64,000 nucleotides of DNA from Crenobacter oryzisoli (GTDB lineage: Bacteria; Pseudomonadota; Gammaproteobacteria; Burkholderiales; Chromobacteriaceae), in NCBI RefSeq assembly GCF_030385785.1, contig NZ_JAUEDK010000015.1:1-64000 (forward strand). Reading direction: 5' to 3'. The translations under genes were made by a program, and so were the position numbers. The notes below the pieces were generated by a model. That model had not been told where the DNA came from. It saw only the letters and a program-made list of their open reading frames with translations, and did not search any database. Numbering within the stretch: position 1 is the stretch's first letter; every line of letters starts with the position of its first letter. Positions 12,025-60,249 of the stretch are shown here, one piece after another.

Positions 12025-12044
12025 GTCGGGCTTAGCGCCGCTAA

Positions 12045-12187
12045 GAGCCTGTTTACGATCTGCTGCACTCGGGTGATCCTGCGTTGAAATGACGCTCAAC
12101 ATGCTTATCTACTCGATAAGTACACTCCGCTTTTTCGCGCCATTTCGCCTTGGCTGACCCTTCCTTCGCGAGATCGTAAACAGGCTC
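12045..12187 (-). mobile_element. MITE-like element, copy A (143 bp)
   Basis: Ends are GAGCCTGTTTACGATCT and its exact inverse; TAA is duplicated on both sides (12,042-12,044 and 12,188-12,190). The interior matches copies at 43,418 and 51,371 read on the other strand and holds a CTTATC/GATAAG hairpin. It encodes no protein. Terminal repeats plus a 3-bp TNA target duplication suggest mobilisation by an IS5-type transposase. The insertion point is inside the outer arm of the palindromic element at 12,034-12,292. Confidence 0.85.
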
Positions 12188-12292
12188 TAACAAAACTCAG
12201 CGAAGCGGCCTTGGCTAGGCATGCGGCCGCAGACAGTACAAGTAGTACGGCAAGGTCGCATAACAACACCAAGGGGTTTTGTTAGCGGCGCT
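12187..12292 (-). repeat. Stem-loop repeat family 2, copy 1; probable bidirectional terminator
   Basis: Nested inverted repeat between two convergent genes. Outer arm GTTTTGTTAGCGGCGCT (12,276-12,292) pairs perfectly with AGCGCCGCTAACAAAAC once the MITE is removed (12,034-12,044 joined to 12,188-12,196). Inside are CCTTGG/CCAAGG, an ATGCG/CGCAT stem and a loop with the family core CTTGTACTG on the minus strand. The stop codon of the DUF2889 gene (12,282-12,284) lies in the arm. Confidence 0.75.
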
Positions 12293-12851
12293 CGCCTTCG
12301 CCGCGATACCAGCGCGGATAGAAACGCGCCACTATCGGGCCGGTGGTATCAAGCGCATGGCAGCCGTCGAGCTGGAAAGGCTTTCGGTCCTCCGGCATCG
12401 GCAGCTGGCCCACCAGGGTCTGGTAAGCCCCGGTGGCCACCGTGCCGATCAGCTCGGTGATGTGGGTACAGCCGCGCACCCCGCCAAACAGCTCGCGCAC
12501 CTTCTTGGTAAAGCCCGGCGCGATGCGCAGGCCGATCAACTGGCGATAGACCGCAGTGATAGTGTCGCAGCTGTCCTGATAAGGCATCGCATCGGTGGCG
12601 GCACAGGCATCGCGGATGGTCAGCGTGGCGTCGACGGTCAGGCGCAGCCACATCTCGTGGATGGGCAGGCCGGCAGCACGCGGCCCCGAAGCCAGCTGTA
12701 CCTCATGGTCCTTCACGTCGGTGAGGTGGCCTTCGATATCCCAGAGGCCGTCGTCGCGGCGATAGCCCTGGATACGGATGTGGCGGGTGTGAAGGCGTTC
12801 ACGCGGAGCGGCGGGAGCGGGCAAAGGCATGGGGCGATCCTGTTTCGGCAA
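12282..12851 (-). CDS. DUF2889 family protein
   Basis: 189 residues, soluble, no signal peptide. Recognised from the RLHTRHIRIQGYRRDDGLWDIEGHLTDVKDHE block near the N-terminus and from the FGGVRGCTHITELIGTVATGAYQTL segment, both typical of DUF2889. Family function unknown; no catalytic pattern stands out, although conserved His/Cys residues (GCTHITEL) could bind metal. 65 bases downstream of the LysR gene on the same strand, so the two may be co-transcribed. Its stop codon is inside a palindromic repeat. Confidence 0.8.
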   Translation of the reverse strand: MPKQDRPMPLPAPAAPRERLHTRHIRIQGYRRDDGLWDIEGHLTDVKDHEVQLASGPRAAGLPIHEMWLRLTVDATLTIRDACAATDAMPYQDSCDTITAVYRQLIGLRIAPGFTKKVRELFGGVRGCTHITELIGTVATGAYQTLVGQLPMPEDRKPFQLDGCHALDTTGPIVARFYPRWYRGEGERR

Positions 12852-43417: not shown

Positions 43418-43558
43418 GAATCTGTTTACGATCTTGCGAACGAAGGGTCAGCCAAGGCGAAATGACGCGAAAACGCGGAGTGGACATGAAGTCCATGAGC
43501 AGTTTGAGCGGCATTTCAACGCAGGATCACCCGAGTGCAGCAGATCGTGAACAGGTTC
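43418..43558 (+). mobile_element. MITE-like element, copy B (141 bp), in the phnG leader
   Basis: Diverged copy: ends GAATCTGTTTACGATCT and CAGATCGTGAACAGGTTC, flanked by TGA and GGA (one mismatch). Its central hairpin is TGGAC/GTCCA instead of CTTATC/GATAAG of the other copies. It ends 22 bases before the phnG start, so the phn operon leader is mostly MITE. It is the oldest-looking of the three. Confidence 0.8.
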
Positions 43559-47354: not shown

Positions 47355-47405
47355 CGGCGGCCGCTCCTTGCCGTACGGCCTGTACTGTCTGCGTCGCGGC
47401 CACCT
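47355..47405 (+). repeat. Stem-loop repeat family 2, copy 2, between phnK and phnL
   Basis: GGCCGC (47,359) and GCGGCC (47,396) form the stem; the loop keeps the family core TTGCCGTAC...CTGTACTGTCT. It occupies the only sizeable gap in the phnG-phnM operon, and the phnL ribosome site that follows is weak. Confidence 0.6.
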
Positions 47406-49995: not shown

Positions 49996-50403
49996 TTACA
50001 GCGCGAGCGAAGCGATAGCCACCTTGGCGATGCGGGCGTCCAGTTCCGGGGTCAGGCCGGAGATGCCCACCGCGCCAACCACCTGGCCGTCCACCAGCAC
50101 CGGCACACCGCCTTCCAGCATGGCATGCAGCACCGGCGCCGACAGGAAGGCGGTGCGGCCACTATTGATCATGTCTTCGAAGGCCTTCGACTCGCGGCGG
50201 CCCAGCGCGGCGGAGCGTGCCTTCTCGGTGGCGATGTGGGCGGACAGCGGTGCGCAATTGTCCATGCGCGACAGGCCCAGCGGATGGCCGCCGTCATCGA
50301 CCACGGCGACCGAGATGTTCCAGTTGTTGGCGGCGGCCTCGGCACGGGCAGCCTGCAGCAGTTGCTCGACTTCGACCAGGGTCAGCACAGCTTTGTGTTG
50401 CAT
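49996..50403 (-). CDS. HbpS/GlcG-like (DUF336) protein
   Basis: 135 residues, single-domain alpha/beta protein. Marks: ISVAVVDDGGHPLGLSRMDNCAPLSAHIATEKARSAALGR and GGVPVLVDGQVVGAVGISGLTPELDARIAKVAI. The family includes haem-binding HbpS and the GlcG protein of glycolate operons; precise role here unclear. Stand-alone gene whose upstream 250 bases contain no recognisable operator. Confidence 0.85.
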   Translation of the reverse strand: MQHKAVLTLVEVEQLLQAARAEAAANNWNISVAVVDDGGHPLGLSRMDNCAPLSAHIATEKARSAALGRRESKAFEDMINSGRTAFLSAPVLHAMLEGGVPVLVDGQVVGAVGISGLTPELDARIAKVAIASLAL

Positions 50404-50659
50404 GTCTCTATTCCTAATTGTGATGAATGATGACGGGTTCGCGCCCAGGACCGTTCGGCGCTCTTGTTGTTATGGCAGGCGGCGGTGCCCACCAGCGTGT
50501 GTCCTTGACCACCATAACCATTCACCGCAATTTCGGAAAGCATTTCCGAATAAACGATTGGATCCATTCCAACCAATACCGCCCTACCTCAACCTTGCAA
50601 CGGCCCATCCTTTTCAGAACTAGCCAACTACCATCCAACCACCAATTTGGAATCGACCG
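50404..50659. other. Intergenic region
   Basis: Must hold the promoter of the HbpS/GlcG-like gene at its left end. The sequence is less GC-rich than its neighbours. No ORF in any frame has convincing composition or a ribosome site. Confidence 0.35.
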
Positions 50660-50693
50660 CCAAAAACGCCAACAGCGACCCGAAGGTCGCTGT
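50660..50693 (-). terminator. Rho-independent terminator with UUCG loop
   Basis: On the minus strand ACAGCGACC and GGTCGCTGT (9 bp) close a TTCG tetraloop, followed by TGGCGTTTTTGG. It lies 70 bases after the stop of the small gene at 50,763 and supports that gene being real. Confidence 0.8.
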
Positions 50694-50762
50694 CTGTGAA
50701 CAGGAGGATGAAAGACCGAACTGTCGACGTTGCGGCCGTATTGCTTCGGTCGGGAAGCTAGG

Positions 50763-50957
50763 CTACCAAGGTTCCGCGCAACGCTCGGCCAACTGGCGAG
50801 CGTCATCCAGATCGTTCAACCGGGCTCGGATACGTTGACGCTTTTGCAAATGAACCGGATCCAGTTTTGGCTTCACAAGGATATAGAGCATCTTGTCGCG
50901 GCTTTCCACAACGCGCTGCCCCCGGAAACGTGCCGACGTACCTTTCAAGATCATCAT
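50763..50957 (-). CDS. Small basic protein of unknown function
   Basis: 64 residues (MMILKGTSARFRGQRVVE...). No similarity recognised. Reasons to accept it: AGGGAGG lies about 9 bases before the ATG, composition is protein-like with many Lys, Arg and Asp, the C-terminal half (LDPVHLQKRQRIRARLNDLDDARQLAERC) looks alpha-helical, and a textbook terminator follows. No membrane segment or signal peptide. Alone between a terminator and a degraded stretch. Confidence 0.55.
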   Translation of the reverse strand: MMILKGTSARFRGQRVVESRDKMLYILVKPKLDPVHLQKRQRIRARLNDLDDARQLAERCAEPW

Positions 50958-51370
50958 GCCGCCTGCCTCCCTAATGGGGTGGTAAGAACCTTCAAATCAT
51001 CTTGAAATCAGCTTACTCGCCCCTTGTTACAGGGTATAGACCAAGGGGCGGCATTGTTTGATCCGAGGCGCCGACTGGCCCTACCTGAGCAGCCAACTGT
51101 CGTTTTTTTGTTCAAAACACTGCCCAAAGTCATACCAGCACTCGACATCGGCACAGCCATCACACTCTGTGGGTTTGTACAGGACACTGACGAGCCCGAT
51201 TAATCATTCATAGCACGATAAAATAGAAACAAATACATCCAGCCCTCAGCCGACCTATTCCCTGACCCGTGCAGGGAGCCATGGCTGCAATCGATGCCGT
51301 CTGGCTAGCGGTCGCCCTGATGACGTTGCCTTGACGAGGCATGCTGCACAACGGCCCGGCCTGCCTCTTA
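50958..51370. other. Intergenic region with hairpin and possible IS66 remnant
   Basis: Contains CGCCCCTTG/CAAGGGGCG (51,018-51,050), a 9-bp hairpin lacking a T-run, then unstructured sequence. At 51,283 a short frame MAAIDAVWLAV is reminiscent of the N-terminus of IS66-type TnpB, but it stops after 17 residues; too short to be sure. Confidence 0.35.
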
Positions 51371-51513
51371 GAGCCTGTTTACGATCTCGCGAACGAAGGG
51401 TCAGCCAAGGCGAAATGGCGCGAAAAAGCGGAGTGTACTTATCGAGTAGATAAGCATGTTGAGCGTCATTTCAACGCAGGATCACCCGAGTGCAGCAGAT
51501 CGTAAACAGACTC
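51371..51513 (+). mobile_element. MITE-like element, copy C (143 bp)
   Basis: Ends GAGCCTGTTTACGATCT and AGATCGTAAACAGACTC; TTA is duplicated at both sides (51,368-51,370; 51,514-51,516). Same length as copy A and nearly identical to it, including the CTTATC/GATAAG central hairpin (51,438-51,454). It appears to interrupt coding-like sequence that resumes at 51,514. Confidence 0.85.
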
Positions 51514-51645
51514 TTACGGCTTGCCCAGCCGACACTGCGTCGTTACCGGCACGGCGAACGTTTTGCCGCCCTGCTGTCGGGATTGGCACTGCTACAGGTG
51601 TCCCTCTACCGGATCAATCTAGCCAAATGCGCCGAGCCCCAGTGA
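51514..51645 (+). pseudogene. 3' fragment of an unidentified gene cut by MITE copy C
   Basis: An open frame enters directly from the MITE end and reads LRLAQPTLRRYRHGERFAALLSGLALLQVSLYRINLAKCAEPQ in two pieces of protein-like composition to a stop at 51,643-51,645. No start codon or ribosome site. I do not recognise the family. Most likely the tail of a gene destroyed by the insertion or by earlier deletion. Confidence 0.35.
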
Positions 51646-51655
51646 CGCTTCGTCG

Positions 51656-51946
51656 TTGTGCGGCAGCGCGCTACAGGTGCTCTCACGGCCAAACCCCAGG
51701 GCTTTGTCGCGACCATCCTTCCACACCGCGCTGGACGTGCTGTTCTGCCTGGTGCTGCGGCACTGCCGGCTGGGCTGGCCATACCTGTTGCTCAATGCGC
51801 AGATAATCACCTCCACCCCGGAGATGGGCGGTCACTATCTGATCGATCCGCAGACCGAGGCGATGCTGCCGATGGCGCCGTTCTTCTCCCGCCACCAGAC
51901 AGCCCCGAGCAAGCAGGCCGAACCGGCCGCAGGCGATGTGGGTTAG
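51656..51946 (+). pseudogene. Unidentified ORF fragment
   Basis: The last ~60 residues (LLLNAQIITSTPEMGGHYLIDPQTE, then MLPMAPFFSRHQ) read like real protein, while the N-terminal part does not and has no ribosome site. It may be the C-terminus of a gene whose front has been lost. Stop TAG at 51,944-51,946 lies at the left edge of a family 2 repeat. No function can be given. Confidence 0.3.
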
Positions 51947-51959
51947 AGCCTCTACCCAC

Positions 51960-52036
51960 TCCCAACGTTGCTACGCTGCCTTGCCATACAACTTGTACTG
52001 TCTATGGCAGCGTGCCTAGCCGGGCCGCCACGCTGG
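51960..52036 (+). repeat. Stem-loop repeat family 2, copy 3
   Basis: ACGCTG (51,973) and CAGCGT (52,008) plus CCATA/TATGG form a stem interrupted by a 5-base bulge CCTTG; the loop is CAACTTGTACTGTC. Closest relative is the copy at 55,061. Confidence 0.7.
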
Positions 52037-52410
52037 ATTGTAGCTTTGCAGAAACTTCGCTTTGTCAGCGGCTCTTAGTCCCAGATGGGGCCCACGCCAG
52101 ACAACCCCGCCCCACGAGAAACGCGCCGATTCGTCGTTGAACCGGGCCCCGTGCCCCATCGCGGCCTTCACGTTGCCACGCAAGATGAATACGAACTCAT
52201 CGAGGTCGACCGGATTGTTAGTAGTGTCGACATACGGTCGCGCCTTGACGACGGCTTGCCCGACCGCATCGTGGGACATCCTCCCTCGCCGGTAGCGAGC
52301 CGGCCGAGCGAGGCCCGCTTGGCCTGAACCAGTTGGGTGAGCGCCATGAACGGTGGATTCGGCTCGCCAGCGGTGTAGCGCCGAAACGACAGTCTGCTGA
52401 CTCCGACAAG
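52016..52410 (-). pseudogene. Degraded unidentified gene
   Basis: Two frames with protein-like composition lie in series on the minus strand: one around 52,300-52,400 (RRYTAGEPNPPFMALTQLVQ) and a second from 52,279 to 52,016 (VGQAVVKARPYVDTTNNPVD, then DEFVFILRGNVKAAMGHG). They are joined only by a frameshift. No family recognised and no ribosome site at the second part. I read this as one broken gene. Confidence 0.35.
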
Positions 52411-52591
52411 CGGCGGATCAGCAACCTGCCCCGTTTTGGCCGACCGCTACAGGACACCTAGCACGACCCGAACACGTCGCACGCCGAGGAAGATGACAGA
52501 GGCAAAACAACCTCGGCCCTAACGCCCCTTGGCAGCCCAGCCGCCATCGCCAATAACGAAATTCGATCGTCAATCAACCGGAAAACATTTC

Positions 52592-55060: not shown

Positions 55061-55167
55061 TTAGAGTCGCTAATAAAACCCTCCCGGCGTTGTTACGCTG
55101 TCTTGTCATAGGACTTGTACTGCCTATGGCAGCGCCCCTAGCGGGAGCGCTACCCTGCGACTCTTAA
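55061..55167 (+). repeat. Stem-loop repeat family 2, copy 4
   Basis: Nested palindrome: TTAGAGTCGC (55,061) faces GCGACTCTTAA (55,157); inside are CTCCCG/CGGGAG, ACGCTG/CAGCG and CATAG/CTATG; the loop keeps ACTTGTACTG. The stop codon of the Lrp gene (55,164-55,166) is in the right arm, so it probably terminates that gene. Confidence 0.75.
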
Positions 55168-55652
55168 CCGTCCTCGCTAGGGGCGGTCAGCGGAATGCGC
55201 GTCTCGTACTTGGCGCAGTGCATCGCGAAGTTGCTCTTGAACTGGCGAACATTGTGGTCGCTGGTGAACAGCCGGCGGGTGAAGGCGTGGTAGGACTCCA
55301 TCGAGGCGGCAACGACGATCAGCATGAAGTCGGCCTCGCCGGCGATCTCATAACAAGCAGTCACCTCCACCTCGGCCTGCATCAGCCGCTCGAACTGGCG
55401 CAGCAGCGCATCGTTCTGCACCGCCAGCTCCACCGAGACGAACACGGTCAGCGGCCGGCCCACCTTGGCGCGGTCGACCAGCACCACCTCCTTCAGCAGC
55501 ACCCCGCTGGCGCGCAGCTGGGTGATGCGGCGCTGGCAGGTGGCCACCGACAGGTGCACCCGTTCTGCCAACTCACGCAATGGCACGCCGGCGTCCTGCT
55601 GCAGGGCGTCGAGGATCAGCCGGTCGTGGCGATCGAGGGTGATGGCGGGCAT
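55164..55652 (-). CDS. Lrp/AsnC-family regulator
   Basis: 162 residues. Helix-turn-helix LRELAERVHLSVATCQRRITQLRASGVL and RAM domain with VEVTACYEIAGEADFMLIVVAASMESYHAFTRRL. Divergent from a rarD-like exporter gene with 138 bases between, in which two overlapping inverted repeats lie. It probably controls that exporter in response to an amino acid. The stop codon is inside a palindromic repeat. Confidence 0.88.
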   Translation of the reverse strand: MPAITLDRHDRLILDALQQDAGVPLRELAERVHLSVATCQRRITQLRASGVLLKEVVLVDRAKVGRPLTVFVSVELAVQNDALLRQFERLMQAEVEVTACYEIAGEADFMLIVVAASMESYHAFTRRLFTSDHNVRQFKSNFAMHCAKYETRIPLTAPSEDG

Positions 55653-60233: not shown

Positions 60234-60249
60234 GAACCTGCTTACGATC
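60234..60249 (+). repeat. Solitary MITE-end-like sequence
   Basis: GAACCTGCTTACGATC matches 14 of 16 bases of the MITE terminal repeat. No partner end or internal MITE sequence follows within 200 bases. May be a decayed remnant or chance. Confidence 0.3.

Follow-up and report, generated by a model that had tools for sequence, protein, structure and literature searches.

The window analysed here, a stretch of 64,000 nucleotides from Crenobacter oryzisoli, contains a hairpin that the initial annotation grouped with three others (near 12,187, 47,355 and 55,061) into one stem-loop family, possibly used as terminators or as landing sites. What kind of element is this, and what work, if any, does its conserved loop perform? 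A 25-base core pattern (up to three mismatches) occurs at four sites only in the window, at 12230–12254 on the minus strand and at 47367–47391, 51980–52004 and 55102–55126 on the plus strand, as compared with a mean of 0.01 in 100 shuffles. In the whole genome (4.93 Mb, 117 contigs) the pattern is matched 75 times and its reversed form never; one of the 75 (L071) is without arms and is probably due to chance. When a covariance model was built from genome-wide copies, as had been suggested, a model of 44 copies matched at least 124 genomic sites with E ≤ 0.01, including all four window sites; the best 150 candidates per genome were scored in such searches, so that all the match counts are lower bounds. 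The four stem-loops are thus real copies, since all match the core pattern and belong to a genome-wide family.

The 44 copies of alignment A1 were taken from a set of 67 elements, being chosen by length and by a recognisable core. In this alignment the written structure pairs 87.9% of the cells, as compared with at most 43.5% when the 3′ partners are slid. Both-sided changes affect 20 of the 34 pairs (at most 14 with slid partners) and 132 cells (at most 30), and the covariation score is 0.267 (at most 0.081). These changes are located in the inner stems and in the terminal stem. The GTAC/GTAC tip changed on both sides once, in one sequence, and therefore says little on pairing, so that the covariation is that of the stems below it. 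Identity across copies amounts to 92–95% in the core segments, 69% and 76% in the two inner stems and 88% in the terminal-repeat stem, a contrast that is biased within the genome because nearly all copies were chosen by their core. The proposed combination of a conserved loop with compensating stem changes is accordingly borne out. The contrary outcome, copies without covariation or with a loop no better conserved than the stems, did not materialize genome-wide, with the bias just mentioned attached to the core contrast. As RNA, one full copy folds at −52.9 kcal/mol (z −5.6); the focal copy, which is worn, does not stand out (z −0.4 and −1.6 for the two strands). Searches of Rfam gave no match over threshold in the window, the best one below it having an E value of 0.93, and a single tRNA in five loci.

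At full length the unit measures about 112 bp and reads TWA|GAGCCGCTAACAAAA ... core ... TTTTGTTAGCGGCTC|TWA. Between its terminal repeats it has two inner stems, a bulge on one side and, at the tip, the conserved core, which is nearly constant: TTGYCGTAC-N5-GTACTGYCTGCG. Alignment of the flanks delimits 15-bp terminal inverted repeats and a 3-bp target duplication. Among the 67 elements with both ends, the flanking 3-mers are identical at the boundary in 23, as compared with 0–2 at nine other offsets; partner shuffles that keep the preference for TTA/TAA gave a mean of 10.8 identical flanks and reached 23 once in 10,000. Empty sites point in the same direction. Ten joined flank pairs were compared with a congeneric genome (G001), and four gave matches spanning the junction, of which two were readable and two too diverged at the junction. 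At one of the readable sites (L302) the congeneric genome has a single TTA where the occupied locus (L027) has TTA-element-TTA; at the other (L305) it has GCCCTAGTC where the occupied locus (L074) has GCCTTA-element-TTAGTC. The repeat is, almost certainly, a non-autonomous transposon (MITE). Some elements keep the same ends around a core that is worn or missing: this is the case of 13 of the 67, with at least nine of 25 core positions mismatched (L105, L106, L110, L111, L113, L117 and others). A 384-aa ORF lies between two same-end elements in a composite-transposon-like arrangement (L105, 315–1859; G000:C41:103614–105158); this wide pair of ends was considered as an insertion sequence (IS) and rejected, as it encloses a host gene between two elements.

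These boundaries redefine the copies in the window. At the focal site the unit is larger than the annotated 51960–52036: a worn, 129-bp element at 51946–52074 on the plus strand (58.7 bits in the model for 51946–52046), flanked by duplicated TTA at 51943–51945 and 52075–52077. The TAG stop of a 96-aa ORF, which is not called as a gene, lies at 51944–51946 and survives because the element begins with G. A 100-bp element with a shortened right arm occupies 55064–55163 on the plus strand (52.9 bits), between TTA at 55061–55063 and at 55164–55166, and the latter is also the TAA stop of an AsnC-type gene on the minus strand (55164–55652). The copy near 12,187 is present as claimed, on the minus strand with its ends at 12035 and 12291, but it is interrupted: its first ten bases (12035–12044) are severed from the remainder, which includes the core (12191–12291; 109.3 bits for 12181–12291), by a nested second element at 12045–12187, whose duplicated target is the TAA at 12188–12190. 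The stop codon reported there is confirmed as well, the TAA of the minus-strand ORF 12282–12851 lying within the outer arm. The copy near 47,355 is likewise present, but only as a core hairpin at 47360–47400 on the plus strand, with no recognisable ends and with 41 of the 112 model positions matched (29.7 bits, E 0.0037). As to the idea of landing sites, it has mostly to be reversed, since it is the element itself that lands at TTA/TAA; the copy near 12,187 did nevertheless receive a second element.

That second element belongs to another palindromic, MITE-like family of 141–143 bp with ends GAGCCTGTTTACGATC. Its copies in the window lie at 12045–12187, nested in the arm of the Correia-type element 12035–12291, and at 43418–43558 and 51371–51513, with a partial end at 60234; the flanking TWA is identical in two of the three copies. 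Both MITE families are present in 50403–52529, about 2.1 kb without a called gene that looks decayed.

The stop codons at these hairpins had suggested a use as terminators, and gene 3′ ends do lie near the elements more often than gene starts: 14 of 46 neighbouring 3′ ends fall between −2 and +5 nt from an element, as compared with 2 of 46 starts. (Contexts were read with a codon-usage gene caller trained on the window; five elements shorter than 90 bp were dropped from the 67, and 22 of the remaining 62 have an edge or ORF-overlap context.) Moreover, the core strand follows that of the gene ending nearby in 24 cases against 10 (p 0.024). Taken together, these figures might speak for a hairpin that is kept behind genes to end transcripts or, at the 3′ end of the mRNA, to protect them. 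A second strand test was however weaker (19 to 10, p 0.14), and seven of the 62 contexts are divergent. A scan with loops of 3–8 detected no terminator-like site, in the sense of a G+C-rich hairpin with a T-run behind it, in the four window copies, the outer hairpin being followed by TWA instead, and the terminator claim is to this extent not supported. Besides, TWA near gene ends is a common target: of the 312 TTA/TAA sites of the window, 21 are no more than 6 nt away from the 3′ end of a gene and 8 near a 5′ end (146 are outside genes). We thus regard a terminator or stabilizer role as very improbable and read the association with stop codons as target choice plus tolerance. Stop codons are found at the element because TAA stops, like the TTAG at some TAG stops, contain the TWA target. 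A TAA hit by insertion is preserved through the target duplication, as in the gene at 55164–55652, and in a TTAG the TAG is preserved by the first base of the element, G. The TWA target accordingly accounts for the stop codons without invoking termination, while the strand bias of the core leaves room for an effect at the RNA level.

Which enzyme could have moved the repeat? In the genome of the window, an element of 735 bp shares the ends of the repeat, is flanked by TTA on either side and contains transposase frames; it is a shortened copy of an IS that reaches 864 bp and has the ends GAGCCGCTAACAAAA. DNA matches to this IS occur in 11 of 41 genomes and are near full length (555–701 of 701 bases) in nine. 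In the nine IS copies with both ends preserved, the flanking 3-mers are identical in five (TTA, TGA, TAA, TTA, TAA) and not identical in four. Two overlapping frames of a copy in G001 match Pfam PF13340 and PF01609 (DUF4096 and DDE_Tnp_1). The exact IS end is found at 8 left and 10 right ends of the 44 aligned elements. What the IS and the repeat have in common is their ends; the core was not seen in the IS. Since the repeat has no transposase and only the ends are common, it is no simple deletion of this IS. Among 25 family genomes searched for both, the IS is near full length in 7 of the 16 that carry the core pattern and in 2 of the 9 that do not; many carriers therefore lack it, as far as can be told from a search at the DNA level. 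Judging from the ends, the enzyme that moves the repeat probably comes from the same-ended IS. Its IS5-type transposase (DUF4096 and DDE_Tnp_1) would bind the ends of the repeat, which itself has no transposase gene, and the element would be inserted at TTA/TAA with duplication of three bases; both the chemistry and the use of this particular transposase are putative. The repeat is very probably an IS5-type MITE with a Correia-homologous core, inserted at TTA/TAA by the transposase of the same-ended IS.

The core itself extends far beyond this genome. When species genomes were scanned for the exact core, at least 109 stretches were obtained, of which 80 are named and largely betaproteobacterial, including Neisseria, Aquitalea, Vogesella, Chromobacterium, Cupriavidus, Acidovorax, Undibacterium and Methylotenera; some Gammaproteobacteria (Regiella, Avibacterium, Cardiobacteriaceae) are also among the matches listed. 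The exact core was further met in goat-gut MAGs labelled Clostridia and Oscillospiraceae (L130, L162), through horizontal spread or misbinned contigs. Within the window's family, a looser pattern matched 24 of 37 genomes; in other families of the order, it matched 1 of 24 (its reversed control gave four matches over the 61 genomes). In a class-wide sample, 3 of 369 genomes carry the exact core, including the window's own, and two of the three belong to the same order, beyond which the exact core is accordingly rare. Plasmid records contain the core in 7 of 72,556 cases, at 37 places (Cupriavidus, Eleftheria, Paraburkholderia), and the phage records searched gave no match.

A covariance model made from the window's genome alone found at least 130 matches in N. 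sicca, at least 56 in N. gonorrhoeae, at least 38 in N. bergeri, at least 38 in Undibacterium and at least 41 in Cupriavidus, at places that were not pre-selected by core, although the matched non-family genomes had themselves been reached as core carriers. In three genomes from the window's family that lack the core pattern, no match was obtained among the best 150 candidates scored in each. In N. bergeri, 16 of the 20 listed matches of model R1 sit on listed Correia ends, and the Correia repeat sequence TATAGTGGATTAAC is the one printed in PMC9778887. Homology between the core of the repeat and that of the Neisseria Correia element is well supported by these matches. Correia elements have been stated to be exclusive to Neisseria spp. 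(PMC5039591), and we found no report of Correia-type elements outside Neisseria in a literature search that was mostly open-access.

At least four distinct sets of ends enclose the same core: GAGCCGCTAACAAAA; GAGRCCGTTTCAAAATG in Cupriavidus; AGGACTTACGCAAAAC in Undibacterium; TATAGTGGATTAAC and TATAGTCGAAGAAATTAG in Neisseria; and ATTCCATTTCCAGTTC in Accumulibacter. Since the loci of the species scan were chosen by exact core, this comparison cannot reveal decayed cores. For one of these sets an IS with identical ends is at hand, and for another an IS whose ends are similar. The latter is a 986-bp element of Cupriavidus pampae with ends GAGACTGTTTCAAAA and TTA on both sides, whose transposase frame is 48% identical over 197 residues to that of the first IS. 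Its ends differ from core-element ends at 3 of 15 positions in the same genome (L148) and at 2 of 15 in a related strain (L197), and Cupriavidus IS ends show 2 to 9 mismatches in 15 to the repeat ends over nine Cupriavidus-type and other loci; the C. pampae IS ends resemble the core-element ends without equalling them. For Correia ends, 19 transposase places in six Neisseria genomes (N. bergeri not among them) had other ends or none, as judged on the best four inverted-repeat pairs per locus, and two wide pairs of Correia ends in N. bergeri were rejected as IS candidates, being neighbouring Correia elements. In Undibacterium, the eight loci read for an IS with the ends found there contain short elements or single ends only.

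Conservation around the core goes beyond the search pattern. GTTG and GCCTWG, which are outside it, jointly flank the core in 22 of 25, 25 of 29, 4 of 4 and 23 of 52 copies of four groups (a rough sort, in which 'other' mixes classes) and never in shuffles. The stem beside the core changes in sequence but stays paired across lineages, in 73.8% of the cells of 84 copies, as compared with at most 49.5% when slid, the C–G pair adjoining the core being fixed by the search pattern. Two core pyrimidines (TTGYC and TGYCTG) are anticorrelated (C/T 105, T/C 24, T/T 14, C/C 9), with a significance that is overstated, as the copies are related. On the other strand, this swap reads as A·G/G·A across an internal loop.

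It is tempting, if only tentatively, to see Correia as a branch of a larger betaproteobacterial superfamily of mobile hairpins, the core of which would be an independent functional module doing the same work everywhere between differing ends. If this is true, it is the core and not the ends that defines the element, and the end sets fit different transposases. The work in question may be done on RNA: RNase III cleavage of Correia transcripts is described in PMC10969869, together with IHF binding in the long form, and by analogy the double-stranded hairpin of the present repeat might also be cut by RNase III, a possibility well short of an even chance. Alternatively, the core might act as a hairpin of DNA, either cruciform or single-stranded, to which a protein aiding movement or replication binds. 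A near-constant core under covarying stems, kept between different ends, would suit such a role, but the binding protein is only putative and folding as DNA and as RNA are not separable here, and we consider this version rather unlikely. The same degree of doubt applies to a core without function, in which all elements would descend from one common ancestor whose ends drifted with their transposases, leaving the core as a relic or as something passively needed. While the CAAAA-like stretch and the similar spacing shared by several end classes are in line with common descent, the core and its GTTG/GCCTWG flanks were kept across genera in which stems and ends differ, contrary to what a relic would lead one to expect. 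Whatever the work of the core, comparing end sets separates the part needed for cutting from the part kept for another reason.

Among known systems, the IS5-family IS (DUF4096/DDE_Tnp_1) shares with the repeat identical 15-bp ends and the TWA duplication, in the same genome and genus, but carries a transposase and has the ends alone in common with it. REP sequences are tagged palindromes of 20–40 bp that go with a RAYT gene; this system was set aside, since the size, ends and target duplication of the repeat fit a MITE. An integron attC site, which the GCTAAC...GTTAGC arms had brought to mind, was provisionally set aside too. The BRE repeats (PMC3110155) are similarly dispersed, of about 90 bp and present in several of the same genera, for example Acidovorax and Delftia; as described there they measure 75–91 bp and are often in tandem (VNTR), and on this comparison by description they may or may not be identical to the repeat. 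A close counterpart is the Correia element (CREE, nemis), which has the same core and layout, the same size class of about 100 bp and a high copy number, and is described in print as mostly intergenic. It differs in its ends, TATAGTGGATTAACAAAA as compared with GAGCCGCTAACAAAA, and in its target, TA (PMC2649163) as compared with the three bases TTA or TAA of the repeat; the latter thus has the characteristic core of a CREE and lacks both the repeat ends TATAGTGGATTAAC and the TA duplication. The mechanism that mobilizes Correia elements has been given as undetermined (PMC2649163), and the occurrence of core relatives beside a same-ended IS provides a candidate type of enzyme for Correia-like movement.
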